21,930 nucleotides of DNA from a virus. Below the pieces are notes generated by a model that made no database searches, had not been told where the DNA came from, and saw only the letters and a list, made by a program, of their open reading frames with translations. Position 1 is the first letter of the stretch; the number at the start of each line of letters is the position of its first letter. The stretch lies in the IMG/VR virus record IMGVR_UViG_3300022935_002487, positions 1 to 21,930 of that record; one strand, written 5' to 3'. A program made the position numbers and the translations under genes. Positions 4,043 to 21,388 of this stretch are shown here, piece after piece.

Positions 4043-4449
4043 GCAAGAGGCAAATTCAATATGAGGTAATACCTCGACCTAGAAAACTTTCGTTTTACGA
4101 ATGGGCGTTTCTTCAGGGAGAAACGGCTAAAGACGCTTTCCTGAAAGGTAAAGAAACGCACCCTTTTCTTAGAGATGCGAAGAGGTATCACATAGCGATT
4201 TCTAACCGAGATAAAAACAGGACAGAAGAAGAAGCGATAGAGATCATGCAAAAGATTAAGGTGGTTGACCTACCTAAGAGCTATGTCTCTATAATCGTCT
4301 TAGGTCCGAACAAGTTCTTATTCTTCACTACGTTCGTAAACCCTTATAGAGCTATACTCCATGAAGTTATTTCTGAGTATCAAAAACTCAACGAAATCCC
4401 TGCACCTCTACTTGAGAGAGCAATCAGTCTCTTGCAAGGTGGTCTGTGA
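4039..4449 (+). CDS. Hypothetical protein coupled to the chaperonin gene
   Basis: The 136-residue protein has no family I recognise. It starts in an ATGA overlap with the chaperonin stop and has almost no ribosome site of its own, so it is probably translated by coupling. The sequence looks mixed alpha/beta. It has a basic N-terminus (MSKRQIQYEVIPRPRKLS), a central hydrophobic strand pair (YVSIIVLGPNKFLFFTTFVN, 82-101) and a C-terminal helix pair (EVISEYQKLNEI, PLLERAISLLQ). It carries no signal peptide, Cys pair or nucleotide-binding loop. Coupling suggests a product needed in proportion to the chaperonin. It does not look like GroES, which is smaller and all-beta with a mobile loop. It may equally belong with the methyltransferase genes that follow. 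Confidence 0.7.
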   Translation: MSKRQIQYEVIPRPRKLSFYEWAFLQGETAKDAFLKGKETHPFLRDAKRYHIAISNRDKNRTEEEAIEIMQKIKVVDLPKSYVSIIVLGPNKFLFFTTFVNPYRAILHEVISEYQKLNEIPAPLLERAISLLQGGL

Positions 4450-5027
4450 TGATAGAAATAAAAATAGGTGACTGTGCCGAGCGTCTTAAAGACTTAGAGG
4501 ATAACTCAGTTGACTCTATCATTTCTGACCCACCTTACGGACTGAAGTTTATGTCCAAAGGTTGGGACGATATAGGTGAGGGTAGTCAACAAAGAGAGTG
4601 GCACAGGAAATGGTTAGCCGAAGCTCACAGAGTCTTAAAACCTAACGGAGTGATTAAAGCGTTCTCAGGGTCTAGGACATACCACCACCTGATCGCCATG
4701 ATGGAAGAAATAGGCTTCTCAGACTTGAGGGTAGAAGCATGGACTTATGGTTCGGGTTTCCCTAAGTCGTTGAACGTAAGTAAAGCGATAGACAAGAGTT
4801 TAGGTGCTGAAAGAATAGTCGTAGGTACTCAAAAAGTGACAGGCACAGCTCGTAAGATTAAAGGCACAAATGCTCATGGAGGGAAGATGGCAGGAGTTGA
4901 CCAAGAATACGAAGAAACAAGTTTGGAAATAACAGTCTCATCAAGCAAAGAGGGTAAGCAATGGGAAGGTTGGGGTACGGCTCTGAAGCCGAGCTGGGAG
5001 CCTATCTGTATTGGAGTTAAGAAATGA
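4449..5027 (+). CDS. DNA methyltransferase catalytic subunit A (DPPY half, no SAM motif)
   Basis: The 192-residue protein is the N-terminal half of a beta-class N4/N6 amino-methyltransferase. It opens MIEIKIGDC and has the catalytic motif SDPPYGL at residues 26-32. It then shows the RVLKPNG strand-turn (61-67), SGSRT, and GSGFPKS...SKAIDK, and ends in GWGTALKPSWEPICIGVKK. In ordinary single-chain enzymes this block is followed by a target region and a C-terminal SAM-binding motif FxGxG. Here the protein stops after the block, and no FxGxG exists in it. I start it at ATG 4449, in a TGATG overlap with the previous stop, because the product then begins exactly like its copy at 5024. AAGG upstream serves as ribosome site. 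It presumably needs the protein at 6081-6776 to bind SAM. Confidence 0.88.
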   Translation: MIEIKIGDCAERLKDLEDNSVDSIISDPPYGLKFMSKGWDDIGEGSQQREWHRKWLAEAHRVLKPNGVIKAFSGSRTYHHLIAMMEEIGFSDLRVEAWTYGSGFPKSLNVSKAIDKSLGAERIVVGTQKVTGTARKIKGTNAHGGKMAGVDQEYEETSLEITVSSSKEGKQWEGWGTALKPSWEPICIGVKK

Positions 5028-5593
5028 TTGAAATAAAGATTGGAGATTGTACTGAAAGGTTAAAAGACCTAGAGGATAACTCAGTTGACTCTATTATTTC
5101 TGACCCTCCCTATGGACTGAAGTTTATGTCTAAAGGTTGGGACGATATAGGTGAGGGTAGTCAGCAAAGAGAGTGGCACAGGAAATGGTTAGCAGAGTCA
5201 TATCGAGTTCTTAAACCTAATGGTGTTCTCAAGGCTTTCTCAGGGTCTAGGACATTTCATCACCTGATAGCTATGATGGAAGAAATAGGTTTCTCAGACT
5301 TGAGGGTAGAAGCATGGACTTATAGTTCGGGTTTCCCTAAATCCCACAACCTCGCCAAGCAGTTTGAAAGGAAAGCAGGTGTAGAGGGCGAAATAGTCGG
5401 TTATTCTAAAGGAGTTTCCGTTGAGGACTCTCAAGGGTATGGTGGGATTGGTCGTGGTGCTGTGGGTATTGTCCAAAAAGCCGTAGACCTACCTGTCAGA
5501 GCTTTAGTTACAGAAGAAGCTAAAACATGGGAGGGTTGGGGTACGGCTCTTAAACCTTCCTGGGAGCCTATCTGTATAGGAGTTAAGAAATGA
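5024..5593 (+). CDS. DNA methyltransferase catalytic subunit B (tandem copy with different recognition stretch)
   Basis: The 189-residue protein is a tandem duplicate of the preceding gene. About 101 of the first 107 residues are identical, including SDPPYGL (26-32), and the last 21 residues are identical. Between them (about 108-168) the two are largely unlike. This copy has a gly-rich GYGGIGRGAVGIV stretch where the first has GTNAHGGKMAGV. The middle lies between catalytic and SAM halves, where beta-class enzymes carry target-recognition elements, so the two copies may read different DNA sites. No SAM-binding motif is present. It starts in an ATGA overlap, with GGAG 7 nt upstream encoded in the last codons of copy A. 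The same sequence recurs at its own end, so the duplication carried the junction with it. Confidence 0.88.
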   Translation: MIEIKIGDCTERLKDLEDNSVDSIISDPPYGLKFMSKGWDDIGEGSQQREWHRKWLAESYRVLKPNGVLKAFSGSRTFHHLIAMMEEIGFSDLRVEAWTYSSGFPKSHNLAKQFERKAGVEGEIVGYSKGVSVEDSQGYGGIGRGAVGIVQKAVDLPVRALVTEEAKTWEGWGTALKPSWEPICIGVKK

Positions 5594-6081
5594 TTATTAC
5601 ATTACTGAGAAAACCCCTAGAGGGAAGCGTAGCCGAAAATACCCTTAAACATGGGTGTGGAGCGATCAACATAGACGCTACTAGGGTGGGTACAGAAGCT
5701 CGCTCTTATAAGGGAGCGGGTAAGACGGACAAGGTTTACTCTGAGAGTCGAGCAGGTATGTCTGACGGTAGAGGGAAAGAAATGGAGTTTAACGTAGAGG
5801 GTAGGTGGCCTGCTAACTTTATTCTTACTCACCTTGAGGGCTGTACTTCTCAAGATGTGGATTGGGCTTGTGTAGAGGGTTGTCCTGTCACCGAGCTAAA
5901 TCAGCAAAGTGGTCATCTTAAAAGCACGACAAGAAATCCCACAGGAAATCCGATATATCCTACCTCAAATACATCAGTCACATGGAACGCAAACAATGTG
6001 ATGGACACGACACAACGAGGGTTCAATGATGAGGGAGGAGCTTCTAGGTTCTTCAAGCAGTTTAAGAAAGGAAATAACTAA
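5590..6081 (+). CDS. DNA methyltransferase middle segment as a separate protein
   Basis: The 163-residue protein begins MIITLLRKPLEGSVAENTLK and continues HGCGAINIDATRVGTE, then GRWPANFILTHLEGC and GGASRFFKQF. In single-chain phage and bacterial beta-class methyltransferases exactly these blocks follow the GWGTALKP...EPI element, in the order RKPL-x-G-(S/T)-VAEN, H-G-x-G-x-INID, GRWPAN, ASRFF. So this is the central part of such an enzyme, cut off at both ends. Five cysteines (GCTSQDVDWACVEGC at 84-98 contributes three) may bind zinc. It lacks both DPPY and FxGxG, so alone it should not catalyse methyl transfer. It starts in an ATGA overlap with copy B, with AGGAG upstream, and its TAA overlaps the next ATG by one base. 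It probably bridges catalytic and SAM-binding subunits. Confidence 0.82.
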   Translation: MIITLLRKPLEGSVAENTLKHGCGAINIDATRVGTEARSYKGAGKTDKVYSESRAGMSDGRGKEMEFNVEGRWPANFILTHLEGCTSQDVDWACVEGCPVTELNQQSGHLKSTTRNPTGNPIYPTSNTSVTWNANNVMDTTQRGFNDEGGASRFFKQFKKGNN

Positions 6082-6776
6082 TGGAAGAAATGATCGAATA
6101 CTTCAAAACAATGATTACACCACCCGTAGAAGACGCTTGTGTCATCGTAGGGAAACCCTCAGAAATAGATTACGAAAAGTACCGTACCATCGAGGGTGCA
6201 AGTATAGTCCCCCTCTACGATCCTGTCGCTCATGGGATTATTCTGTTAGATGAGCCAACAGAAGAAGAAGCTCAAAAACTCATGGCTATTCTAAAACCTG
6301 GCGGTCATATCGTACTTATCCCCAAAGACATAGGGTACAAAGGTGTGATCGCTCTTGAAGATCAAGGTTTTGAAGTGAGAGACGCTATCTTTGTAGGAGA
6401 AAACTCTGATGATTTCTATTACACATCTAAAGCGAGTCGATCTGAGAGAGAAGCAGGCTTGAGGTCTGAAGATGATAGCCGAGCTAATGTTCACCCAACT
6501 GTTAAGCCTATCGACATTATGGAGTGGTGTGCTAGAGACATAGCCCCTAACTCTAAAGTCGTAGACCCATTTCTTGGGAGTGGAACTACGGGTATTGCTA
6601 TGAGCCGTCTAGGACATGATTTTGTAGGTATAGAGCTGAACCCCGAATATGCAAAGATATGTGAGGGTAGGATTAGGCATTGGATGCCTATTGGCTCAGA
6701 AATAGTATCAGAAGCTGAAGTCGGTAAAGCCGAAGCTCAAGAGGGAGACACTATTTCCATCTTCGACTTGTTTTGA
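6081..6776 (+). CDS. DNA methyltransferase SAM-binding subunit with degenerate catalytic half
   Basis: The 231-residue protein has the C-terminal half of a beta-class methyltransferase: YYTSKASRSEREAGL (113-127), HPTVKP (138-143) and the SAM-binding loop VVDPFLGSGTTG (160-171). GIELNPEYAKIC follows. Ahead of this, residues 15-105 look like a worn-down N-terminal methyltransferase half: LMAILKPGGHIVLIP and IALEDQGFEVRDAIF match the family, but LLDEPTEE stands where DPPY should be. It therefore binds SAM but lacks the catalytic tetrad, complementary to the proteins at 4449 and 5024. The C-terminus, after a Glu/Ala linker, is SIFDLF, which resembles the sliding-clamp-binding motif. It starts in a TAATG overlap and ends one base from a convergent gene at 6778, with no room for a separate terminator. 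Confidence 0.86.
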   Translation: MEEMIEYFKTMITPPVEDACVIVGKPSEIDYEKYRTIEGASIVPLYDPVAHGIILLDEPTEEEAQKLMAILKPGGHIVLIPKDIGYKGVIALEDQGFEVRDAIFVGENSDDFYYTSKASRSEREAGLRSEDDSRANVHPTVKPIDIMEWCARDIAPNSKVVDPFLGSGTTGIAMSRLGHDFVGIELNPEYAKICEGRIRHWMPIGSEIVSEAEVGKAEAQEGDTISIFDLF

Positions 6777-8159: not shown

Positions 8160-8813
8160 ATGATACTAGGTTTAGACCCCTCACTCAGAAACTTTGGGTG
8201 GGTTCTCATGGAAGATGACGGTCATTTCTTAGACAAAGGAATGATGTCTACGAAAGCCGACATGATGTTCGTCAATCGCTACATATTTCTTCGAGAGGGC
8301 TTGAGGGAAATAGTACAAACAATCAGATCAAACTACCCTGATAAGAGCCTAAGAGTTGGGATAGAGAGCCCCATCTTTAACGACCTTTATTCAGAGGGTA
8401 TGTACGGCTTATTTCTATATTCTAACGAAGCTCTGATGCTTGAGAAATGTGATACTGTTTACCTCACACCGAACCAAGTGAAAGCTCATGCGTCTTTATT
8501 TCTTAATCGCCCGAAAGGTTGGAAGATGCAGAAAGGCGACATGGTAGACGCTGTAAAGCAAGCGACAGAAGGGCAAGGTGCGAAGCGTTGGAATCACCAC
8601 CAAGCAGACGCTTATTGGGTTGGTCGTACAGCAGGTCGGTTTTGGCAACTCGTTGAGGGGGAACTAGAAATAAGTGACCTCTCAGAGTTGGAAAAAAAGC
8701 ACTTCACCGACTACGAAAAATATGTGCGTGGAAAGAAAGCAGGCAAGGTAAAGCGTAAGGGTATAACCCATAAAGAGAATGACAGATACTTTAGGTGGTC
8801 AGAAGAAAATTAA
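8160..8813 (+). CDS. RuvC-like Holliday junction resolvase (RNase H fold)
   Basis: The 217-residue protein starts MILGLDPSLRNFGW, the first strand of RuvC-family nucleases, with catalytic D6. The second acid is E69 in VGIESPIF. The last cluster is WNHHQADAYWVG, with H146/H147 and D150. The KGDMVDAVKQAT segment (125-136) before it is also usual in this family. All expected metal-binding acids are present, so it should cut four-way junctions symmetrically in DNA recombination or before packaging. The C-terminus (about 175-217) is a Lys/Arg-rich tail beyond the core fold, probably for DNA contact. The ribosome site GGAGG is excellent. It heads the plus-strand recombination cluster, immediately ahead of the RecA-like gene. 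Confidence 0.88.
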   Translation: MILGLDPSLRNFGWVLMEDDGHFLDKGMMSTKADMMFVNRYIFLREGLREIVQTIRSNYPDKSLRVGIESPIFNDLYSEGMYGLFLYSNEALMLEKCDTVYLTPNQVKAHASLFLNRPKGWKMQKGDMVDAVKQATEGQGAKRWNHHQADAYWVGRTAGRFWQLVEGELEISDLSELEKKHFTDYEKYVRGKKAGKVKRKGITHKENDRYFRWSEEN

Positions 8814-8851: not shown

Positions 8852-8880
8852 CTTAACTCATGCCTCGAAAGGAAATATTC

Positions 8881-10086
8881 ATGGCAAAAGCAAAAGCGAA
8901 AGCGTCAGCTACTAAGAAACCAAAAACCGATCTCATGGCTGCGGCGAAGGCAGTCGCAGGAGCATTAAAAGAAGATCACGTTGTCTCTCTCGACCCCAAC
9001 AGTCTTAAAGAGAGTCGCCCTCACATTTCTACAGGCTCTGTTGCTCTTGACTATCTCATTGGAGGTAAAGAGAATGAGCATGGGGTACGCCCCTGTCCGG
9101 GTATTCCGAAAGGAAATATCACCAACCTTTACGGTCTTGCAGGTGCAGGAAAGACTACGATTGCTCTCCAAACTGCGGCTCAGATTTGTGCCGAAGGTGG
9201 CACTTGTGTTTACATTGATTGGGAGCATGAGGTCGATCACCGATATGCTTCACTCTTAGGTGTTCCTGTTTCAGACCCTACAAAGTTCATGCTCATTCAG
9301 CCCGATACTCTTGAAGCAGGTTTACGCTACCTCTTTACTATGGCTGATGCAGGTGTTGACCTTATCGTGATCGACAGCGTGGGTGCCGCAGTTCCGAAAG
9401 CAATCTTTGACAAGCAAGATGACGGTCCTGCTCCTGTTGGTCTTAATGCTCGTTTGTGGAGTCAATATCTCCCTAAGATCAAGAGCAAGATCAAGTCAAC
9501 AGAGACAGCCATTATCGGTATTTCTCAGCTTCGTGAGTCTATCGGTGGTGGTGGACCCTCTTTCGCAGGTCCTAAGAAAATCCCACAGGGAGGTAAGGCT
9601 TGGTCGTTCTTCTCTACGCTTCAGATTATGCTTCGTGTAGTGGGTAAGGAAAAGGGTAAAGAATGGGACGGTATGCAGGGTAAGGCAGTTGACACCGTTC
9701 TTGGTACTCAAGTGCGAGCCAAGCTCGATAAGTGCAAAGTCTCAGATTCAGCCCACAAAGAGGTCGATTTCTATCTCATGTCGGGTGAGGGTGTCGATAA
9801 TGTTCGTACTATCCTTGAGCTTGGTATCAAGACAGGTGTTGTTAAGAAAGGGGGTGCTTGGTACTCATGGCAGAGTGGTGAAGGAGAGGTTCGTGGTCAA
9901 GGCTTGAACAACTTCAAAGAGTCTTTAACTGATGAACATATCGCAAGCATCTTCGCACAGGTTAAGCCCTACCTCGCTGACCCTAAGAATAGTTCTAGTA
10001 ATGATGAAGCTCCAAGCCTTGAAGAACTTGCTAATATGTCAGAGGAGTCTGATGAGGATTTCCTAGCGAGTCTTGAGGACTTGTAA
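8881..10086 (+). CDS. RecA-like recombinase
   Basis: The 401-residue protein forms ATP-dependent filaments on single-stranded DNA and drives strand exchange. It has Walker A GLAGAGKTT (85-93), the catalytic Glu in YIDWEHEVDHRYA (E115, matching RecA E96), Walker B DLIVIDSVGAA (160-170), and a GISQLRESIGGGG loop region. The PQGGKAWSFFSTLQIMLR block corresponds to RecA GGNALKFYASVRLDIR. The N-terminus is Lys/Ala-rich and the C-terminus acidic, ending in SLEDL; acidic tails regulate RecA and T4 UvsX loading. I start it at ATG 8881, with AAGGA 8 nt upstream. An in-frame ATG at 8860 has no ribosome site. The DNA around Walker A is well conserved with cellular RecA, so it is a true RecA relative and not a Sak4-type short ATPase. 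Confidence 0.93.
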   Translation: MAKAKAKASATKKPKTDLMAAAKAVAGALKEDHVVSLDPNSLKESRPHISTGSVALDYLIGGKENEHGVRPCPGIPKGNITNLYGLAGAGKTTIALQTAAQICAEGGTCVYIDWEHEVDHRYASLLGVPVSDPTKFMLIQPDTLEAGLRYLFTMADAGVDLIVIDSVGAAVPKAIFDKQDDGPAPVGLNARLWSQYLPKIKSKIKSTETAIIGISQLRESIGGGGPSFAGPKKIPQGGKAWSFFSTLQIMLRVVGKEKGKEWDGMQGKAVDTVLGTQVRAKLDKCKVSDSAHKEVDFYLMSGEGVDNVRTILELGIKTGVVKKGGAWYSWQSGEGEVRGQGLNNFKESLTDEHIASIFAQVKPYLADPKNSSSNDEAPSLEELANMSEESDEDFLASLEDL

Positions 10087-10347: not shown

Positions 10348-10382
10348 TTATATGTTCTCTTATGCGAAAGGAGAACATATGA
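10348..10382 (+). promoter_or_regulatory. Strong hairpin burying the ribosome site and start codon of the Rad50-like gene
   Basis: ATGTTCTC (10352-10359) pairs perfectly with GAGAACAT (10371-10378). The stem extends outward by T-A, A-T, T-G and T-A to 12 pairs. The 3' arm holds part of the AGGAGA ribosome site and the start codon ATG (10379-10381). Translation would need the hairpin opened, for example by a coupled ribosome, a protein or a change of conditions. TATA-like sequences (TATAAA at 10339, TTATAT at 10348) in the same gap may be a promoter. Confidence 0.6.
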
Positions 10383-11512
10383 AGCTAAAAGTAGACAACT
10401 TTCAGTCTATTAAGAGTGCTGAGATAGAGGTCAAAGGACTGACCGTTATCACAGGCGAGAATAGCATTGGTAAATCAGCCCTAGCGAGAGCATTTAATGG
10501 GGTTTTCACTAACTTGAGGGGTGATGCTCATGTCCGTAATGGAGAGAGCCATTCCTCAGTTTTAGTGACGTTTGATGACGGCAATGAAGTGCTTTGGGAA
10601 AAGGGCAAGAAAGTAAATCGCTACGTTGTCAATGGGAAAGAAATAAGCAAGGTAGGAAGTGGCGTTCCTGATGAAGTAAAAGACTTAGGCATAAAGTCCG
10701 TCACAATAGACGGAAAGGAAGTCTACCCTCAGATAGCCAAGCAGTTTCAGAATATATTTCTGATCGACCTACCCCCAAGTGCTTTGTCCTCTGCCCTTTC
10801 AGACGTGGAAATGATACAGCAACTTGAGACAGCCTCGGCTAAAGCTCGATCAGAAATAAGAGACATTAAGTCTCGTATGAAAGTAAAGCGTGAGGACTTA
10901 GAGACTGCGAAAAATAACCTCGCTCTCTATGAAGACTTAGACATGAATGTCCTCTCAGACTTTGAGCAAGCAGAACAAAGTCAGATAGAAGCTGAAGGCA
11001 AAGTCACTAAGGCTGAAAGCCTCGCTCTAAAGAAAGACAAGATCAGTAAGCTAATCGAAATAATGGCAGAAGCCAAAGACGTAGAAACCCCTTCTTTCGA
11101 CCTCTCAGAATACGATCAGATCAGCGAGCTTGAAAACCTCTTAAAGCGTAGGAATCAAGTAGTCAATCAGATCGAAGCATTAGAGGAAATAGAGACTAGC
11201 CCGATAAATGTATCTGCCCCCACCCTACCTGAAGTAGATGAGCTTCAAAGATTACTCGACAGAAGAAATAAGATTGGAAGTGCGATTAAAGAACTCATGC
11301 CCCTCTTGACGATGAAGAAAATCGTAGCTCCGACAGACGATTCTGAGATCATTGCTATGCTAGAGCGAAAGCAGAAGCTAGAACTCGGTATCCAACTCGC
11401 AGGTAGAGAAATAGATAAACTCTCTGTCGAAGTAGAAGAAGTCCAAAAAGAAATAAGAAAAGGTGTTTGTCCTATATGTCTAAGGGAAGGAGGTGATTCA
11501 TGCCACGATTAA
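10379..11512 (+). CDS. Rad50/SbcC N-terminal half, ending at the zinc hook
   Basis: The 377-residue protein begins MKLKVDNFQSIKSAEIEV, typical of SMC/Rad50 ATPases. It has Walker A GENSIGKS (26-33) and a Q-loop-like segment near FQNIFLIDLPPSALSSALSD (about 133-151). About 200 residues of charged coiled coil follow. It ends in VCPICLREGG with the zinc-hook CPIC at 364-367, and stops 10 residues later. A complete Rad50/SbcC would return through a second coil to the signature and Walker B motifs. Those are in a separate gene at 15105-15719. The start is ATG 10379, with AGGAG 6 nt upstream; an in-frame ATG at 10352 lacks a ribosome site. Its end overlaps the Mre11 gene by 13 bases. With Mre11 it should process DNA ends. 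Confidence 0.88.
   Translation: MKLKVDNFQSIKSAEIEVKGLTVITGENSIGKSALARAFNGVFTNLRGDAHVRNGESHSSVLVTFDDGNEVLWEKGKKVNRYVVNGKEISKVGSGVPDEVKDLGIKSVTIDGKEVYPQIAKQFQNIFLIDLPPSALSSALSDVEMIQQLETASAKARSEIRDIKSRMKVKREDLETAKNNLALYEDLDMNVLSDFEQAEQSQIEAEGKVTKAESLALKKDKISKLIEIMAEAKDVETPSFDLSEYDQISELENLLKRRNQVVNQIEALEEIETSPINVSAPTLPEVDELQRLLDRRNKIGSAIKELMPLLTMKKIVAPTDDSEIIAMLERKQKLELGIQLAGREIDKLSVEVEEVQKEIRKGVCPICLREGGDSCHD
11487..11497 (+). promoter_or_regulatory. Full-length Shine-Dalgarno site inside zinc-hook codons
   Basis: AAGGAGGTGAT is complementary over 11 bases to the usual 3' end of bacterial 16S rRNA. It lies 2 bases from the Mre11 ATG (6 bases from the AGGAGG core) and also encodes the residues just after the zinc hook of the Rad50 N-half. 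Confidence 0.8.
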
Positions 11513-12474
11513 TATGGAGAACCGATGTCCATATGGGAGATCGAACCCCTAGAAGACGCACAGGAAATTGGACAGAAGACGTAGCCAATAAGTTAAGATG
11601 GATAGGTCAGAAAGCGAAAGAAATAGACGCTGATATAGTCATAGACGGAGGAGACTACTTTGATGTGAAGTCGCCCGTCAAAAACTCACATGGGCTTGTT
11701 CGACTGTCATGTGAAATACACTCAGAATACCCTTGCCCAACTTACGCTCTAGTGGGCAATCACGATGTGAAATACGGCAACATTGACTACCTACCCGAAC
11801 AGCCTCTTGGGGTTATGTTTTCTTCGGGAGTCTTTAAACAGTTTGGTGATGACGAGGAAATAATCTTAGAAGGTGAAGGAGTAAAGGTTAGGGTCGTTGG
11901 AGTCCCCTATCATGGAGTGGAATACGACTTTGATCGGCTCGCAAACATTTCTAAGAAAGACGAGGACTACTTGATTGTCGCTTGTCACCTGCTCGCTAGG
12001 AAAGGCAAGACAGGTTCGATGTTTGAGGGCGAGGATATTGTCGGCTACGATTTCCTCAATAAGAATACAGAGGTAAACGCTTGGATGTTTGGGCATTGGC
12101 ATAAAGACCAAGGCATTTCCAAGCTCAGAAATGGTGCTGTAGTAGTGAACGTAGGCTCTCTGACTAGAGGGTCTTTGCACCTAGATGACTTAGATCGAAA
12201 ACCCTGTATTGTAGAAATAGAAGCCACGAAGCAAGGGCTTAACTTCAAGCGTCACAACGTGCCTGTCCGACCTGCTTCTGTCGCCTTTAAGATTGAACAA
12301 GCAGTGCGAGAAAATGAAGATGTAGATCGCATGGAAGAAATAGTCGAGAAGATGAAGTCTGTAGTGACTGAGGGTTGGGCAGGCAAGTCTCTCATAGATA
12401 AGGTGCGAGAAATGAAGATCGCCAATGAAGTTAAAGAACAAACAATTTTATACTTAGAAAGCGTAGGTAAGTAG
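11500..12474 (+). CDS. Mre11/SbcD-like nuclease (calcineurin-type phosphoesterase)
   Basis: The 324-residue protein carries all five metallophosphoesterase motifs in order: D9 and H11 in RTDVHMGD, D52 in IDGGDYFD, N87-H88 in VGNHD, H163 in VACHLL, and H199/H201 in FGHWHKD. The two bound metals would drive exonuclease and endonuclease cutting of DNA ends in complex with Rad50/SbcC. The C-terminal 70 residues are helical and charged, suitable for binding the Rad50 coil base. The start overlaps the Rad50 N-half by 13 bases and has a near-perfect ribosome site. T4 gp47 and T5 D12 are phage relatives of this enzyme class. The protein is complete, with no missing ligand. Confidence 0.92.
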   Translation: MPRLIWRTDVHMGDRTPRRRTGNWTEDVANKLRWIGQKAKEIDADIVIDGGDYFDVKSPVKNSHGLVRLSCEIHSEYPCPTYALVGNHDVKYGNIDYLPEQPLGVMFSSGVFKQFGDDEEIILEGEGVKVRVVGVPYHGVEYDFDRLANISKKDEDYLIVACHLLARKGKTGSMFEGEDIVGYDFLNKNTEVNAWMFGHWHKDQGISKLRNGAVVVNVGSLTRGSLHLDDLDRKPCIVEIEATKQGLNFKRHNVPVRPASVAFKIEQAVRENEDVDRMEEIVEKMKSVVTEGWAGKSLIDKVREMKIANEVKEQTILYLESVGK

Positions 12475-12504
12475 TCTGATATATATGTCTTGCTTCGGTA
12501 TTAT
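12475..12504 (+). promoter_or_regulatory. Candidate promoter ahead of the Cas4-like gene
   Basis: TCTGATATA (12475-12483) is followed after 15 bases by TATTATAGG. The same 9-mer with 15 bases and TATAAC occurs at 13500-13529. TGATATATA reads as an extended -10 (TGn plus TATATA), 42 nt ahead of the start at 12517. The box sits just after the Mre11 stop. Confidence 0.4.
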
Positions 12505-12516
12505 AGGAGGAACTTT

Positions 12517-13494
12517 ATGAAGCAGGATAACGAAGATATGAAATACATTTATTGGTCGCATATTAAGATGATGCGTGAGTGTCCACAACGCTACTTGTGG
12601 AGTAAAGGACACCCCGACCATGACTTAGGTAATGGGATAGGTAAAAAGAAGCCCTTACCCCCCGAAAACCAACGTGAATCTGAACATCATCTGCTCATGG
12701 GTTCGGTGCTGTCGAAGGTAGTAGAGGACTTCTATAACCATGAGTTTTGGAGAGAGCCTAAGACTTTACAAGAAAAAGTCGCAGACCTAGCCCGTAAAGA
12801 GTTTATACTCCAAGAACAGCAATACTATTGCCTTTGGAACTACATGACTCGTGATGAAGCGATAGACGTTTGTGTTAATGGTGCTGTCAATTTCCTTCAC
12901 ATAATGAAGGAGAACCGACTGCTTGGAGTTTGGAACAAGTCTGAGCTTAAAATGACACCTGCTGTGAACAAGTATTTCTCAGCTTCAGGTATTGCTGACT
13001 TAGTGTATAGAGACAAAGAGAATCGTATCCATATTCTTGACGGAAAGAACGCTAGTACGCCGGGGAAATATGAAGATGAAGATCAGCTTAGATGGTACGC
13101 ACTCTGTTTCAGATTACAATACGGAGTGATGCCCCACCGATTAGGGTTCTTCTATTTCCGATACCCATCTGACAAGTTGCCTGATATGAAGCACGTCCCT
13201 GAAAAGTATCAGAAGAAATGGACAGGCTTCATGGAAGTCGATTTCAATATGTCAGATATTAAGAGATTAGCGGCAGAGGGTGTCGAAACCTCTAAAGCTA
13301 TTCAGCGTGGGGTCTTTGAAGCGAACCCTATACCAAAGCATTGTCGTACTTGCCCTTACGAGTCTGTTTGCGAAGAACGACAAGCACAGAAAGCTCGGAA
13401 CTCAGCAAAGCGTGGTCTAAGTAAGACTAATACGCCCGACCCAACTGAAAGTGGAGATGGTTTTATAGACCTTTCTTTTGGCTCTAAAAGTTGA
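12517..13494 (+). CDS. Cas4/RecB-like PD-(D/E)XK nuclease with Fe-S cluster cysteines
   Basis: The 325-residue protein has the RecB-family layout. S-H-x-K-M-M-R-E-C-P-Q-R-Y (14-26) carries the first cluster cysteine C22. MGSVLSKVVEDFY (61-73) follows. The catalytic core has D161 in SGIADLVYRD, D175 and K177 in IHILDGKN, and QLRWYAL (190-196). Three more cysteines, C276, C279 and C285, are in HCRTCPYESVC. The one-plus-three cysteine spacing is that of the 4Fe-4S staple in Cas4, AddB and Dna2-type nucleases. It probably trims DNA ends in the RecA/Mre11 pathway; no CRISPR array or other Cas gene is nearby. The true start is ATG 12517 with AGGAGG 6 nt away, not the in-frame TTG at 12490. The tail GFIDLSF may be a protein-binding peptide. 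Confidence 0.87.
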   Translation: MKQDNEDMKYIYWSHIKMMRECPQRYLWSKGHPDHDLGNGIGKKKPLPPENQRESEHHLLMGSVLSKVVEDFYNHEFWREPKTLQEKVADLARKEFILQEQQYYCLWNYMTRDEAIDVCVNGAVNFLHIMKENRLLGVWNKSELKMTPAVNKYFSASGIADLVYRDKENRIHILDGKNASTPGKYEDEDQLRWYALCFRLQYGVMPHRLGFFYFRYPSDKLPDMKHVPEKYQKKWTGFMEVDFNMSDIKRLAAEGVETSKAIQRGVFEANPIPKHCRTCPYESVCEERQAQKARNSAKRGLSKTNTPDPTESGDGFIDLSFGSKS

Positions 13495-13495
13495 A

Positions 13496-13529
13496 GACTT
13501 CTGATATACAAAGAAGTCACTCTTATAAC
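13496..13529 (+). promoter_or_regulatory. Candidate promoter with perfect inverted repeat over the box
   Basis: GACTTCT (13496-13502) and AGAAGTC (13512-13518) form a perfect 7-bp repeat around GATATACAA. TCTGATATA (13500-13508) overlaps the left arm, and TATAAC follows at 13524-13529. The start codon at 13544 is 44 nt from the 9-mer. The repeat could be an operator, or a hairpin if transcription starts upstream. Confidence 0.42.
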
Positions 13530-13543
13530 TTGAAGGAGTTAAA

Positions 13544-13813
13544 ATGTCCGATGAAATAAAAGCTCTTGTTGAAAGACGAGATGCGATTGAGTCAAGAAAG
13601 TCCAAGCTGACAGGTAAGCTAGAGGTGGCTAAAACCTCTCTCCAAGAAATAGATACTAAGTTGAAGGAACTCGGTATCAAACCTGCAAATCTTGAGCAAG
13701 AAATAGAGCGTCTTCGTTCTGAAAGAGACGCAAAAATCCAAGCTTTTAAATCGGCTGTTGAAGAAGCCGAAAACGTATTGTCCACCATTGAGAATAGGAT
13801 TGCTAATCTATGA
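13544..13813 (+). CDS. Small coiled-coil protein
   Basis: The 89-residue protein is almost entirely heptad-like helix: MSDEIKALVERRDAIESRKS, then LEVAKTSLQEIDTKLKELGI, a break at KPANLE, and QEIERLRSERDAKIQAFKSA. The break would allow a helical hairpin of two roughly 40-residue arms. There are no cysteines and no nucleotide-binding loop. It sits between the two halves of Rad50 and is joined to the clamp gene by ATGA. It may supply coil missing from the split Rad50, or bind the clamp; both are inference. The ribosome site GAAGGAG is good. Confidence 0.72.
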   Translation: MSDEIKALVERRDAIESRKSKLTGKLEVAKTSLQEIDTKLKELGIKPANLEQEIERLRSERDAKIQAFKSAVEEAENVLSTIENRIANL

Positions 13814-15105
13814 GTAATACCCCCGTCCTTAATATTGCTACTAACGACCTAAAGTCAGCTATCGCAACTGCAAGTCTGACTCTTGCCAATGCCCCTGACA
13901 TCACATCACATTTCCTTTTTGAAATGGTTGGTGAGGAGCTGTTTGTCTCTGCTTGCAACCCTCCTCGGATTTACTCATCTATCCCACTCCAAGGATATAA
14001 GATCGAGTACCCCGAAACAGAAGAAGAAACCTCTGAGTCTGAGGAAGAAGATTCTCACGATTTCCCCTCTTTTACGGTTGAGGGTAAGCGTCTGATGAAA
14101 GCGATTGGTGCTGTAAACGGACTTCTTAAAATCTCAGTCGATAATGGAAATGTGACTATCCTTACAGACAAGGGTACTCTTGAGCTATCTAGCCTTGACC
14201 CAAGCGTATTTCCTCCTTGGAGAGATATGTACTCAAAGGCTCAGAGTACAAGCACCACTATCCCTGCTACAGTCCTCCATGATGCCCTCGCTATCAGCAA
14301 GCCTTTCATGTCTACTGACGAAGCCCGTAGACCCGAACTCGCACAGATTTATATCACAGACGGCATCGCTTTCGCTTGTGACGGCTTTGGTCTTTCTATG
14401 GCAAAGTCTGAGAGCTTTAATAACTTAGACATGAAGTTTCATCACAATGATGTGGCAAGCATTACTAAGTTCGTAAAGAAGTACGAGAACTCCTCCATAG
14501 AGATTCTCACCTCTGCTAAGGCTTCATTTCTGAAAGCAGAAGATGGGGCAATCATGGGCATGATGGCAGTCCCTTTCGATATGCCTAAAGCGATCACCTC
14601 CAAGTACATTGATGCTTTCGATTGGACTCCAAGACGTGTATGGCGTATTCAGAAAGATGAGTTTAACAACGCTCTAAACTTCCTCGCTTCGGGTGCTGAC
14701 GAGAGCGACTTCAAAGTGACTCTTATTGATGCAGAAGCAGAGACTCTTTCTCCACCTCGCTTGGAGATGAATGCAGTTAATGGGAAGGGTGTCATTTCCT
14801 ACTCGATTGACAACGTAGGGACTGAAGCTCAGATTAGTGATGACTTAGACCTCAACACTATTGAAGATTTGGGCGAACGCTTGTATGCTTCTCGTGCCTT
14901 GCAAGATAAGCAAGGCACTACTGAGGGTGAAGATATTGACTCATTCTCTTTCAACATTAACTACATGAAACGAAGCCTTGATGTGACCTCAAACACTCTT
15001 ACTTTCGGTTGTAATCGTGAGGGAGAAAAGCGTGGTTATATGCTCTTTAAGCAAGCCACAGCGAGTGGTGTTGAGATCGTTTCTATACTAGGCTGGATGA
15101 TATAA
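13810..15105 (+). CDS. dnaN: DnaN-like sliding clamp
   Basis: The 431-residue protein resembles the bacterial DNA polymerase III beta subunit. The N-terminal domain has LKSAIATASLTL, then FEMVGEELFVSACNPPRIY. Next come FTVEGKRLMKAIGAVNG and VTILTDKGTLELSSLD...FPPW. The second domain begins LHDALAISKPFMSTDEARRPEL, with IYITDGIAFACDGFGLSM. A third domain ends SGVEIVSILGWMI. Three such domains per chain make a dimeric ring around DNA. Its length exceeds the usual 366-380 residues. Part of the excess is an acidic insertion (YPETEEETSESEEEDSHD, 67-84). The start overlaps the coiled-coil gene as ATGA. The clamp tethers polymerase and possibly other proteins here. The partner loader begins at position 167 on the minus strand. 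Confidence 0.86.
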   Translation: MSNTPVLNIATNDLKSAIATASLTLANAPDITSHFLFEMVGEELFVSACNPPRIYSSIPLQGYKIEYPETEEETSESEEEDSHDFPSFTVEGKRLMKAIGAVNGLLKISVDNGNVTILTDKGTLELSSLDPSVFPPWRDMYSKAQSTSTTIPATVLHDALAISKPFMSTDEARRPELAQIYITDGIAFACDGFGLSMAKSESFNNLDMKFHHNDVASITKFVKKYENSSIEILTSAKASFLKAEDGAIMGMMAVPFDMPKAITSKYIDAFDWTPRRVWRIQKDEFNNALNFLASGADESDFKVTLIDAEAETLSPPRLEMNAVNGKGVISYSIDNVGTEAQISDDLDLNTIEDLGERLYASRALQDKQGTTEGEDIDSFSFNINYMKRSLDVTSNTLTFGCNREGEKRGYMLFKQATASGVEIVSILGWMI

Positions 15106-15719
15106 TGAATGACATCAAGGAACGCTTTCTAAAACTTAAAGCTCTCAAGGAGTTTGAGCAAAAAAGAGTCAATGATCTTGACACAGAAATAGCGTTTCTT
15201 GAGTGTGATTTAGACGTTAAACAGCAGGCTCAAGGGGTCTTAGACCTTCTCGCTGAAAAAGAAGTTAAAGAGGGAGTTAAGACCTATATTTCTTTGCTTG
15301 ATGAAGGTTTGAAAGCGATCTTCCCCGAACAGAACATCAGCCAAGAAGCTGAGATCACAAAGGTTAGGGGTAAGGTCGCTGTTAGACTTAAAACAGTAGT
15401 AAACGGGAAAGACGGACTTGTCGTAGAGGGTGAGGGTCTTGACACCTTTGGAGGTGCTGTAAGCACCGTACAAAGTCTACTACTCAGAGTTTCTCTATTA
15501 CTCAAAAGAGAACTCAGACCTGTCCTTGTCCTTGATGAGACATTTCCTGCTGTAGACGAAAATCGAGTCGATCTCCTAGTCAATTTTCTTAAAGCTCTAT
15601 GCAAGAAAACTGACATGAAGATTCTTTGCATTTCCCATAACGCTTCTATTGCTGATAGTGCTGACCTGTCTTATCGAGTCAAAGCTACTACGCAAGGAGC
15701 GAAGTTTACCAAGATTTGA
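15105..15719 (+). CDS. Rad50/SbcC C-terminal half (signature, Walker B, H-loop)
   Basis: The 204-residue protein supplies what the gene at 10379 lacks. After a short helix (about 1-60) it has the ABC-type signature region DTFGGAVSTVQSLLLRVSLL (113-132). Walker B with catalytic Glu is PVLVLDETFPAVDE (139-152). The D-loop area is followed by ILCISHNASIAD (173-184) with the H-loop His178. It lacks Walker A and has no CxxC hook, and its coil is far too short to pair with the roughly 200-residue coil of the N-half. ATP sites would form between the Walker A of one protein and the signature of the other. It starts in a TAATG overlap with the clamp gene, which suggests coordinated dosage. Confidence 0.87.
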   Translation: MNDIKERFLKLKALKEFEQKRVNDLDTEIAFLECDLDVKQQAQGVLDLLAEKEVKEGVKTYISLLDEGLKAIFPEQNISQEAEITKVRGKVAVRLKTVVNGKDGLVVEGEGLDTFGGAVSTVQSLLLRVSLLLKRELRPVLVLDETFPAVDENRVDLLVNFLKALCKKTDMKILCISHNASIADSADLSYRVKATTQGAKFTKI

Positions 15720-17537: not shown

Positions 17538-17736
17538 ACCCGAACACCACCCCGATTGTGGGTGGTGGAACGATTGTCATAACTGCACTTGTGGTGCTTT
17601 CGATCTCGTCATCTGTGACGGCTGTGGCAGACGCACTTTCAGAAATGAGTTCATAATCACAGAGGACAGCAACCTATGCGATGCTGTCCTCTGTGAGAAA
17701 TGCCTCTCTCAAAAGGCTCTTAGCCGAACATCTTGA
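17506..17736 (+). CDS. Small zinc-ribbon protein
   Basis: The 76-residue protein has nine cysteines. C18, C24, C27 and C29 (DCGWWNDCHNCTCG) form one cluster. C37/C40 (ICDGCG) and C63/C66 (LCEKC) form a second, treble-clef-like pair of CxxC knuckles. It is probably a structural zinc protein, perhaps nucleic-acid or protein binding. The start is a GTG at 17506 or 17515, both inside the MazG gene; AAGG or GAGG lie at suitable distances. The stop lies 17 bases inside the convergent helicase gene. A 15-bp hairpin falls in its last third. An ATGA-started 40-codon frame (17534-17656) overlaps it and is discussed under rejected items. Confidence 0.62.
   Translation: MSSVGQATTDEPEHHPDCGWWNDCHNCTCGAFDLVICDGCGRRTFRNEFIITEDSNLCDAVLCEKCLSQKALSRTS
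17657..17696. terminator. 15-bp perfect hairpin between convergent gene clusters, possible bidirectional terminator
   Basis: TCACAGAGGACAGCA (17657-17671) and TGCTGTCCTCTGTGA (17682-17696) are perfect complements around a 10-base loop (ACCTATGCGA). It is the strongest inverted repeat I found in the window. It lies at the end of the plus-strand cluster, 24 bases before the end of the helicase gene coming the other way. Neither strand has a U-tract next to it, so intrinsic termination is unproven. It lies within zinc-ribbon codons. Confidence 0.55.
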
Positions 17737-20700
17737 TTGCGAGGTCGATCTCTCGATCACTCAAGCTGTCATTTCTGACTTCAACTGTCTCAGCCAAAAT
17801 CTGACGAGCAGCCTTCAATGACGCTTCCTTCTTGCAATCACCAAATACCCTAGAAATGAACTCCGACTCGCCTGCATCTTTACCCCCACCTGTTAGCTCA
17901 TAAGACTGAACCGTTACAGACTTCTTACCACGAGTCACAGCAACATACGCAAGCATACGCTCCTGCTCTGCCTTGAGCCTCTTCGCTTGCTCAGGATTAT
18001 CATGGACGATAGGGTCAAAGTCCTCTTTATCTGAAGGGAACTTACCTGCAACCATAGGCACAGTAAGGTGAGTGACCTCAAGACCTTTCCAACCATGAAT
18101 AGTATCAAGAGTTACTGCTTCAACGCCTTGGTCTTTGCTTTGCTTCATTGCAACCTGTGAAGAAATCTCCAAGTTTCTGAACTTCTCAAAGACACGTTCA
18201 AGACCCCCATCGTCAACTGCTTTTAAGAAGATGCTTCTTAGAGCAACTAAAGGAGCAAGAGCAAAGTCTACTGTCTTTAGCTCTTGGAGTTCTTCTTCTG
18301 AAGTAATCGTAGTAAGAGCATTCGCCATTTCATCAGCGTGGGTTTTTGACATACCCACGATCATGTCCTTTAGTGTACCACCAGGTCCTGCAAACTTACC
18401 CCCATCTTCAAAAGTCTTATTTCCTACAATGAGATCGAACAAAGAACTTGGGTCTTCGTGTCTTGCAACCAAAAGGTCGTCTACAAGAGAACAATAGCTA
18501 TTAGTCTCTTCTATTTGAGTCTCACCAAATAGACCCTCAGAGTTTTCACACACCTCAAGGCAAGACCCGACAATCACTAGCTCTCTAGCATTTGTCTTAT
18601 TCACGTCTTCCAAGTCTTCTAAGAAGAAGGATTCAAGTTGCTCCTTTGTGAGCCTCTTAAATTGTGCCTCAAGTTCTTCAAACTTTTTAGGGTTTTGAAG
18701 ATGACTCTTAAATACCCTCTGCACATCACGACCAAGATCGAACTTTAAGTCTCTGTGTAGGTTCAAGAAAGCACCATAGAACGAGCCAATAAAGTCGCTT
18801 GCCCCAATAGTCGTAGAACCAATACCCAAAGCTCTCAGAATCTTCTTTGTAGTTGGGTGTTTAAATGGATTCACAGGGCAAGTAAAGTTAATGTCTTTCT
18901 CTAAAAGCGAAAGAGCATAAGGGACAAGCTCTGCATTAGTACGACAAGCAACCCCATAATCTGAGGCTTTATAAATGTCCTCACTTGTACCTCGCTTCAC
19001 TCGATCAGCAAAAGCCCCTGCCGCATCATAAGGGCTTTGGTGATTTGTGTCTCTTGTAATAGAGTCAGAGCCGTTGTCCTGCTCTTGAAATACAGCCGTA
19101 CAGACCATACCTAAAGAACCTTCTTCTTCAGAAATGAGCTTGTTTGCCGCATCTACAATAGCCTTGGTAGAACGGAAGTTGACACCAAGAGTCATTACGT
19201 CAAAAGCACCCTCATTCTGAGTTGCTTTGCTTGAGAACTCAGAGCTTTGAGCACCACGAAATCCGTAGATACTTTGGTTCTCGTCACCAATAAAGGTAAT
19301 GCTTCTTCCATTGTCCATTACAGGGGCTTCAACAGGAACAGGGGGCTTATCCCCACCTCTCCCACCTGCTTCCATAGTGCCTGAAAGTAGACCAAAGAAA
19401 GCGTGTTGAACAGGGTTTAAGTCTTGAGCCTCGTCTACGATGATGTGCTTATACTGCTTCTGTAGCTGTTTTAGGTTCGTTTTACGAGAAAGCACCTTAA
19501 CAGCTTCAATAAGCATATCGTCAAAATCGGTAAGACCTTCCTCTGTCAGAATATGAGCATACGCCCCATAGACTTTAGCTTTGAGAATGAAGCTCTCGTC
19601 AATGTCAGGTCTATTCACTCTGTTGTAAGCCTCAGTTGGAGAAACCATATTAGCTTTACATTTCGTGATAAAAAGCTGAGCTTCTTTAGGGTTAATCTTA
19701 ACCTCTTCTTGACCCTCAACTTTGCTACCCCACCACATAGGTTTATCCACAGAAGCAGTCTTTTTCTGTTGGTAAAACGTATACTTGCCTGGATTTCCAC
19801 CAAAAGCTCTATTAAGAACTTTATCACCTCTTTCGGTATCAAGCTCTCGGTTTACCAAACCTATTTCTGTCGAAGTTAAATCCTTGTCATTAAGCAGCTT
19901 CTCTCTAATAGAAAAGAGTTCATCAACAATGCCTACCTCTTCTGCTTTAAGAAAACCCTTGTCTCGTCTGTACTTTTCGACAGCAATCAAAAGATTTAAA
20001 ACGCTGAGGTCATTTCTTTTTTGATTTTTTTGGATTGAGTCAATCTGATCGGCAAAAAGAGAAGTGCTTCTCACTTTAGACGAGTCGGGGGCTGTTTCTT
20101 TTACTAACGTAATCGCTCTTTTAATCAAACGGTCTAGTTCAAAGTCATCAGACACAAGAGTAGCGTCACCTGCTTGTGGGTGGAAACGATTCACTATTTC
20201 TTGAGCGATAGAGTGAGTCGTCCTACCAATCGCTGTGTGGCTCATCTGAGGAATCCTAGACCCTACAGCGTCTTTCACCTTTTCAGCTAAATCTTGAGCT
20301 GATTTCCTAGAGAAAGAAACAGCCATGATGTTGTAAGGAGTGACATCATCATTTTTACTTAAGAGGTGAGCAACTTTACCTGAGAGTACACGAGTCTTTC
20401 CTGAACCTGCACCCGCAGAAATAAGAGTCATACCTGTCTTTGAGCCAAGCATCGCATCTTCTTGATCTTTCGTAAGACCTAGCTCGACAGCTACTTCAGT
20501 CTTCAATTCCCCACCACGAATAAGAACGTCAGCGTCAGAAAGAATCGTAATGACCTCTTTTAAAGAAGCGTCAAGATCAGACTCATCTATAAGTTTCTGT
20601 TGCTGAATCGCCTTTTCTGAGTCAGTTAGAGCTTCGTTATCTTTAATCTCTTTGAGTTGTTCGGCAAGGCTCTTAGTTTCTGTTGCTTTCGCAACCTTTG

Positions 20701-21388
20701 CTGTGTTTGGGCTATACTCGTCAAGAGCCTTCTGTATAGCTGTTTTAAGAAGACGAGCATGAGTGCCTCTAATAGAGCAACCAGCTAGGCTGGTGAGGTT
20801 GCCTTTAGCGTCAACGAGACTTTTGAAGGGAGCTTTAAGTTTTGTTTCGAGAATATCTCTAGCTTCTCTAATGTCTGTAGAAGTAGCAAGCTCACAGAAA
20901 AGAACAGCAACAACCGAAGCAATTGTTATTTCCCTTGTGCTATTAAGAATACCTCTAACAGTACGCAGTTTAGCTCTGATGAGTTTTTGTTTTTGTTTAT
21001 TAAGGGTCGTGAAGAACATTTCCCCTAAGCTCTCAAAAGCAGCTTCACGCCTCTCTAGCTTGATGATCGCCTCTTTTAAGTCATTAAGAATTCTAACTAG
21101 GTCTTTAGCTCCTGTCATTTTCGCTTCTTCGATTAAAGCGTTATATACCAAGAGTGCCTTAAAAAGCACTAAGGCTTCTGTTTGGTCTTCTACAGAATAA
21201 TGTTTAGCAGGTCTTCCTTTAGTGAGCCAAATCTCAGCTTGTTTTGTGGTTATTCCTGCAAGCTCTACTACCTCATCAACATTTTGATTATCCCACAATA
21301 ATCTAGGAGACATATTATCATCTAAGCCGTCTAAGACTTTATCGTGGATTTCTAACCACTGTTTACTTGCTTCTTTTTTAATACTCAT
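17720..21388 (-). CDS. UvrD/Rep-like superfamily 1A helicase with long N-terminal extension
   Basis: The 1222-residue protein has the SF1A helicase motifs in order: motif I ISAGAGSGKTRVL (323-335), Ia AVSFSRKSAQDLAEKV, motif II IIVDEAQDLNPVQ (649-661), III FIGDENQSIYGFRGAQ (699-714), IV GVNFRSTKAIVDAA, V DTIHGWKGLEVTHLTVP (near 1098) and VI MLAYVAVTRGKK (near 1150). It should unwind DNA 3' to 5' using ATP. UvrD is about 720 residues. The excess is a 300-residue helical N-terminal region without known motif and a longer middle (about 400-600). Residues 36-72 (VDEVVELAGITTKQAEIWLT) look like a helix-turn-helix. No nuclease motif was seen. GAGG lies 8 nt from the ATG, and the gene follows the upstream gene by 5 bases. 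It converges on the zinc-ribbon gene with a 17-base overlap. Confidence 0.91.
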   Translation of the reverse strand: MSIKKEASKQWLEIHDKVLDGLDDNMSPRLLWDNQNVDEVVELAGITTKQAEIWLTKGRPAKHYSVEDQTEALVLFKALLVYNALIEEAKMTGAKDLVRILNDLKEAIIKLERREAAFESLGEMFFTTLNKQKQKLIRAKLRTVRGILNSTREITIASVVAVLFCELATSTDIREARDILETKLKAPFKSLVDAKGNLTSLAGCSIRGTHARLLKTAIQKALDEYSPNTAKVAKATETKSLAEQLKEIKDNEALTDSEKAIQQQKLIDESDLDASLKEVITILSDADVLIRGGELKTEVAVELGLTKDQEDAMLGSKTGMTLISAGAGSGKTRVLSGKVAHLLSKNDDVTPYNIMAVSFSRKSAQDLAEKVKDAVGSRIPQMSHTAIGRTTHSIAQEIVNRFHPQAGDATLVSDDFELDRLIKRAITLVKETAPDSSKVRSTSLFADQIDSIQKNQKRNDLSVLNLLIAVEKYRRDKGFLKAEEVGIVDELFSIREKLLNDKDLTSTEIGLVNRELDTERGDKVLNRAFGGNPGKYTFYQQKKTASVDKPMWWGSKVEGQEEVKINPKEAQLFITKCKANMVSPTEAYNRVNRPDIDESFILKAKVYGAYAHILTEEGLTDFDDMLIEAVKVLSRKTNLKQLQKQYKHIIVDEAQDLNPVQHAFFGLLSGTMEAGGRGGDKPPVPVEAPVMDNGRSITFIGDENQSIYGFRGAQSSEFSSKATQNEGAFDVMTLGVNFRSTKAIVDAANKLISEEEGSLGMVCTAVFQEQDNGSDSITRDTNHQSPYDAAGAFADRVKRGTSEDIYKASDYGVACRTNAELVPYALSLLEKDINFTCPVNPFKHPTTKKILRALGIGSTTIGASDFIGSFYGAFLNLHRDLKFDLGRDVQRVFKSHLQNPKKFEELEAQFKRLTKEQLESFFLEDLEDVNKTNARELVIVGSCLEVCENSEGLFGETQIEETNSYCSLVDDLLVARHEDPSSLFDLIVGNKTFEDGGKFAGPGGTLKDMIVGMSKTHADEMANALTTITSEEELQELKTVDFALAPLVALRSIFLKAVDDGGLERVFEKFRNLEISSQVAMKQSKDQGVEAVTLDTIHGWKGLEVTHLTVPMVAGKFPSDKEDFDPIVHDNPEQAKRLKAEQERMLAYVAVTRGKKSVTVQSYELTGGGKDAGESEFISRVFGDCKKEASLKAARQILAETVEVRNDSLSDREIDLAIKMFG

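Follow-up and report, generated by a model that had tools for sequence, protein, structure and literature searches.

The viral DNA analysed here, a stretch of 21,930 bases that comprises the whole of IMG/VR record IMGVR_UViG_3300022935_002487 (the window) and is a fragment of a viral genome, encodes a Rad50/SbcC-type ATPase, ordinarily a single long chain for DNA-break repair that folds back on itself, in two separate genes. The first gene (10379-11512, + strand) specifies an N-half of 377 amino acids (aa) with lobe I (Walker A and Q-loop), an arm predicted to consist of five helices and a terminal CPIC zinc hook. The second (15105-15719, + strand) specifies a C-half of 204 aa with a 70-residue entry helix and lobe II (signature, Walker B and H-loop). 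These are the halves of one Rad50, cut right after the hook: a split protein that is homologous to Rad50 and would work like it, but in a divided variant. An initial annotation of this DNA had placed the two genes 3.6 kb apart, and the measured gap is 3,592 bp; the observation is real, and the split is not decay. Together with a small hairpin protein of 89 aa encoded between them, here called H, the two halves probably form a tripartite Rad50 that works with the adjacent Mre11 and has a split head and an arm completed by H.

The two genes encode complementary halves of one Rad50

The N-half carries its Walker A motif as GENSIGKS and its hook as CPIC (residues 364-367), followed by ten residues and the stop codon; the initial annotation had likewise read Walker A, the CPIC hook and a stop after it. 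In an alignment of the N-family, G31 and K32 of Walker A, Q122 (the Q-loop) and both hook cysteines are invariant. When a profile of 54 N-halves was compared with solved structures, Rad50 ranked first (lobe I: 3aux, 8.6e-12; 1ii8_A, 6.6e-7), and the last 60 positions of the profile matched two isolated zinc hooks of Rad50 (6zff and 1l8d, ~3e-6). Of 77 non-redundant N-halves, 71 carry the CPxC motif 4-22 residues from the C-terminal end, as do all 30 armed N-halves from Bacillota. These hook matches and this conservation indicate that a coiled arm ends in a CxxC zinc hook.

A predicted model of the N-half (mean predicted local distance difference test score, pLDDT, 81.5; predicted template-modelling score 0.38, so that the relative placement of the helices is uncertain) does not give the one plain coil that had been described. 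Five helices follow lobe I instead (133-183, 189-233, 242-270, 287-311 and 322-361), and then CPIC. Rad50 chains rank first for this model in Foldseek. In VIA-align the heads of RecF, SMC and Rad50 fall within ~1 Z unit of one another and are barely separated, and the assignment of lobe I to Rad50 therefore rests on sequence. In the tail beyond CPxC, Cys and His make up 12.6% of residues against 1.7% in the arm. A self-contained zinc site in this tail was considered and rejected, as canonical Bacillota SbcC (CPVCGSxxHP) equals it with 12.3% in the first 11 residues (p=1.0). Many phage N-halves end in Cys or His (GVEHEASSC, EQTHKGGGC, GKPLAHQCA; the tail in the window lies at 11470-11509).

The C-half shows the expected signature (FGGAVSTVQS, G116/G117), Walker B (VLVLDET, D144/E145) and H-loop (H178) and no CxxC, in agreement with the initial annotation. 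Across the C-half alignment F73, G116, D144 and E145 are invariant, and H178 is kept in at least 90%. A profile of 24 C-halves matched Pyrococcus Rad50 C-chains first among solved structures (lobe II, 3qkr_B, 1.1e-12). The helix preceding the lobe had been called only short; in the AlphaFold2 model (mean pLDDT 88.5) a single helix spans residues 2-72, ~45-50 of them beyond the lobe, and lobe II follows. Foldseek placed the SMC head 5h66_B first for this model with Rad50 chains close behind, and VIA-align placed 1f2u_B first (Z 14.0, root-mean-square deviation 2.7, 143 residues aligned). Neither half alone contains the full set of ATP-binding cassette (ABC) motifs, and the two sets are complementary.

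The split is conserved among distant phages

Among 32 large contigs bearing an N-half (43-485 kb), 30 have exactly one C-half, always as a separate open reading frame (ORF). No full-length SbcC and no ORF of SbcC size was found in these 32 contigs, where the AAA_23 model matches ORFs of 293-458 aa. In all loci examined the lobes are encoded by separate ORFs rather than joined in one chain by a returning antiparallel coil, and a search of about 77 N-halves for a fused version in phages turned up no armed N-C relative. A single ORF in that set is long (L070 4609-6729, from IMGVR_UViG_3300037264_000327), a 706-aa N-half whose Walker A loop is interrupted by an intein-like insertion (GPNNSGK ... 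HN-TALIRAI).

The order RuvC-RecA-N-Mre11-nuclease-H-clamp-C recurs at 38-43% identity in the 485-kb phage LR745208.1 and is also present in many IMG/VR contigs. In other phages the spacing differs: the C-half lies far from the N-half in Tunturi_5 and in Microbacterium phage Magritte, the Rad50 pieces are close together in Bacillus phage vB_BboS-125, and Microcystis phage Mvi-JY20 has the order N-Mre11-H-C. Because the halves are far apart in some phages and close in others, their distance is uninformative, whereas their co-occurrence is informative. A Mre11/SbcD gene stands nearby, as in other Rad50 systems: in the window it occupies 11500-12474 (+ strand; PF00149, E=3e-11) and overlaps the N-half gene by 13 nt, and the presence of Mre11 nearby is conserved.

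A frameshifted or interrupted SbcC gene, arising by decay or by an assembly error, can be dismissed almost with certainty. No point in its support was found. The ORFs are intact, motifs and order are conserved at the above identity in an independent 485-kb phage and in many others, and genes for Mre11, a nuclease and a clamp stand between the halves; this explanation is already refuted.

A small hairpin protein accompanies the split Rad50

H came to light in a comparison of small ORFs that adjoin the N-half or the C-half in distant phages. In the window it is encoded at 13544-13813 (+ strand), and it consists of an amphipathic helix of ~45 residues, a G[IVL]xP-type turn and a second amphipathic helix, with the central motif xxxGIKPxxLxxEIxxL. 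Both helices have a hydrophobic periodicity of 3.5 residues, three times that of shuffled sequences. An iterated H profile gave one match per locus and none elsewhere in the loci. It detected H in 27 of the 32 large contigs, the few extra matches being much weaker, and in 24 of these 27 H lies at most 2.5 kb from the N-half or C-half, where ~2.5 would be expected by chance. Its position varies with lineage, and it adjoins the N-half (Tunturi_5 group), the C-half or the clamp. Attempts to name H by a known family failed, as Pfam and the PDB returned only generic coiled coils and PHROGs returned two families of unknown function (phrog_5328 and phrog_18563).

The initial annotation had listed this coil protein without connecting it to Rad50, and had left three options for the N-half arm: pairing with itself, pairing with another protein, or standing alone. 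The second is borne out in part, with the 89-aa protein as a strong candidate for the partner. H, a conserved hairpin of small size for which no link to Rad50 had been drawn before, is probably its third component, through a contact with the arm that we infer.

Chromosomal, plasmid-borne and fused forms in Bacillota

A scan of bacterial genomes revealed chromosomal operons besides prophages. In a sample of 199 Bacillota genomes, drawn evenly, the C-half was present in 34 (about one in six). H was found in 32 of these 34 and in none of the 165 genomes lacking the C-half (Fisher p=5.6e-35); in one C-positive genome without H (G216) the C-half lies at the end of a 4-kb contig. All 30 readable Bacillota loci have the order N-H-C, with H directly between the two halves. 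The tripartite locus often stands between recA and rny, behind Mre11, and Halalkalibacterium halodurans and Aedoeadaptatus/Peptoniphilus share the order pgsA-cinA-recA-Mre11-N-H-C-rny (neighbours judged by sequence, with Pfam used for RecA and RNase Y). A view of the split as peculiar to a single phage is not supported: the arrangement is old and widespread in phages, plasmids and Bacillota chromosomes. The plasmid loci include L319 (Bacillus velezensis plasmid p3) and L320 (Alkaliphilus plasmid pB6464), and the plasmid C-halves are annotated as 'chromosome partitioning protein ParA' or as hypothetical.

One genome, G104, encodes a single chain of 700 aa (L242 3152-5254, - strand) in which Mre11 (1-266), lobe I (337-504) and lobe II (511-680) are fused, with no arm, no CxxC and no H. 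As judged from its domain layout, this fusion shows that Mre11, lobe I and lobe II act together, and it is possibly a minimal Mre11-Rad50. Since the protein without arm and hook is also without H, H appears tied to the arm, which suggests that it is needed only where an arm exists.

That the halves belong to two unrelated ATPases is very improbable. The 3.6 kb between the genes in the window and the far-apart loci of several phages would fit such a view, but the complementary motif sets, the one-to-one co-occurrence of N and C, the adjacency in 30 Bacillota loci and the natural single chain of Mre11, lobe I and lobe II have already largely refuted it.

SbcC occurred in 2 of the 34 genomes with the tripartite form as against 79 of the 165 without it (p=1.6e-6). 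SbcC was counted by SbcC_Walker_B matches in the score range typical of SbcC, the statistics ignore relatedness, and the first pass covered a limited set of candidates. On the assumption, from size and score, that the strongest PF13558 matches (~1e-25) are probable JetC/MukB-like proteins, these were left out of the count; TIGR00618 proved too strict as an SbcC marker. The trend supports, and does no more than support, a replacement of SbcCD by the tripartite Rad50 in these Bacillota.

A model for the tripartite Rad50

A Rad50 head combines lobe I with lobe II, pairs with a second head on ATP and gates Mre11, and zinc hooks join two Rad50 molecules. By analogy with this known biochemistry, the N-half and C-half would bind in trans to form one split ABC head. 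Such a head is physically workable because the matched Pyrococcus Rad50 entries (1f2t, 1f2u, 1ii8 and 3qkr) contain the N and C chains as separate polypeptides. A stalk of two helices of similar length would form from residues 133-183 of the N-half against residues 2-50 of the C-half entry helix. Two heads would then dimerise on ATP, gate Mre11 at DNA ends and feed the neighbouring RecA, and the hooks would tether the ends. Beyond the stalk the N-half arm has no covalent return strand; H would bind this arm and supply the missing helices, so that the hook would be held at the tip of a rod of N and H. The simplest argument for H in place of the return coil is that the N-H-C order repeats the succession of lobe I with hook, return coil and lobe II. 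We thus think that H probably supplies part of the missing coil, the exact contact being one that we infer.

Several observations weigh against this proposal. H matches the return coil of archaeal Rad50 models in the right place (Rad50_Sulf, for example, at 593-668, with the C-half match at 674-869), but at E ~0.003, too weak for coils, which match by chance, and an identification of H as a return-coil piece by homology was accordingly rejected. The size of H is fixed (78-106 aa), whereas N-halves vary from 300 to 566 aa, so that H cannot cover every arm. H was not found in 5 of the 32 large contigs at E<=0.001, and the armless fusion is a single case. Finally, the N-half of Magritte has no hook, yet H is kept (gp245, beside the nuclease and the clamp). 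H is therefore not tied to the hook itself and a rule by which H is lost with the hook had to be abandoned; on present evidence, H follows the arm. The neighbours of gp245 in Magritte include gp244, which matches a PDDEXK nuclease, and gp247 (OR553905.1 128005-129243), which is annotated as 'ASCE ATPase' and matches a sliding clamp profile at 1e-18.

Some of these observations would suit a different role, in which the split head forms as proposed and H regulates the head or Mre11 as an adaptor (Nbs1- or kleisin-like) rather than being part of the arm. The constant size of H beside a variable arm, its place next to the C-half rather than the N-half in many phages and its persistence in the hookless Magritte speak for an adaptor. 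We regard this as unlikely, given that an adaptor should still be useful in the only genome with a fused Mre11-N-C, which lacks arm, hook and H alike, and that H adjoins the N-half, not the C-half, in another phage group. Somewhat less likely again is a parallel homodimer in which the arms of two N-halves pair, or an N-half arm that folds back on itself through its five helices, with H as an accessory. The predicted arm is indeed broken into helices with extended VxP linkers and is not one rod, and a hairpin of helices 133-183 and 189-233 is conceivable, but self-pairing leaves the near-perfect N-H-C linkage unexplained.

An arm completed by H remains our preferred reading. Its wider form, in which Rad50 is an obligate three-subunit protein with an arm completed non-covalently by H, and in which this is the native Mre11-Rad50 of a large part of the Bacillota, replacing SbcCD there and exchanged with many phages (taken up by or from them), is one that we hold tentatively, with doubt slightly prevailing.

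Relation to known Mre11-Rad50 systems

The tripartite protein shares with archaeal and bacterial Mre11-Rad50/SbcCD the lobe I, hook and lobe II motifs and the adjoining Mre11, and archaeal Rad50 structures are its best profile matches. It differs in being divided into two genes just after the hook, in the conserved H gene between them and in the missing long return coil. Some Bacillota loci also resemble the archaeal herA-nurA-rad50-mre11 gene clusters (PMC2288612), as a HerA-like helicase gene (PF01935) lies directly upstream of Mre11-N-H-C (L246 120-1970, L161 7090-8961 and L250 315-2258), forming an archaeal-type cluster in bacteria. The crystals of the Pyrococcus furiosus Rad50 catalytic domain (1F2T/1F2U, 1II8, 3QKR) likewise present the head as separate N and C chains; those are laboratory constructs, whereas the N chain described here retains arm and hook and is naturally separate from the C chain. 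T4-type phage SbcCD (gp46/gp47; phrog_77/phrog_100) is also a phage Mre11-Rad50 beside recombination genes, but the T4 Rad50 is one chain, and the separate halves match phrog_77 only partially and weakly (4.7e-6 and 1.2e-4). An SMC-type hinge does not apply, as no chain spans the arms and the N-half ends in a Rad50-type hook.

Altered architectures of the same complex are known from Mre11/Rad50 fusions such as Mimivirus R555, among them fusions of Bacillus phage 0305phi8-36 and Anaerostipes without one P-loop segment (PMC3175470). The G104 chain is related to these in kind. The published proteins are fused where ours is divided, and H is not described there. Jumbo phages offer a parallel for the division of a single chain into separately encoded parts, in the split forms of their polymerase III and RNA polymerase. 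The review that discusses these regards phage SbcC as an ordinary ABC ATPase and makes no mention of a split SbcC (PMC7824862). A search of the open-access literature found no published split Rad50, a scope that makes this weak evidence of novelty.

Genomic context in the window

The Rad50 genes of the window follow two conserved upstream neighbours on the + strand, a RuvC-like resolvase (8160-8813) and a RecA/UvsX recombinase (8860-10086). All four genes that the initial annotation had placed between the halves (Mre11, a Cas4-like nuclease, the coil protein and the clamp) lie there, Mre11 and the nuclease with Pfam matches. The PD-(D/E)XK (Cas4/RecB-like) nuclease (start 12490 or 12517, end 13494, + strand; PF12705, E=2e-15) is a conserved neighbour of the module in the huge-phage lineage. 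The beta-type sliding clamp (13810-15105, + strand) is co-located with the Rad50 parts in the window lineage only; its presence between the halves is confirmed, and its DnaN-type assignment rests on transitive homology only. The clamp gene shares 4 nt (ATGA) with H and 1 nt (TAATG) with the C-half gene, and the gene overlaps are suggestive of translational coupling in two blocks, N-Mre11 and H-clamp-C. A UvrD-like helicase ORF (17720-21388, - strand) lies downstream of this gene run. Elsewhere in the window, two tandem, nearly identical ORFs for the N-terminal part of a DNA methyltransferase (4446-5027 and 5024-5593) overlap by 4 nt and are followed by another methyltransferase part (5590-6776), indicating a duplicated or split methyltransferase.

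Implications

In every Rad50 studied to our knowledge, the covalent fold-back at the hook sets how the lobes meet, how the rod opens and closes and how DNA is tethered. A natural Rad50 that is cut at the hook, with its second strand on another protein, would allow a direct test of whether hook and head are coupled through one chain, and the natural fusion without an arm is a ready comparison. If the model is true, assembly, opening or exchange of the rod completed by H could take place at the hook. Under the proposal, three gene families of phages, plasmids and many Bacillota, whose present annotations are 'AAA family ATPase', 'hypothetical protein' or 'chromosome partitioning protein ParA', acquire a name and a likely role, and the whereabouts of the Mre11-Rad50 system in Bacillota that lack SbcC would be explained.

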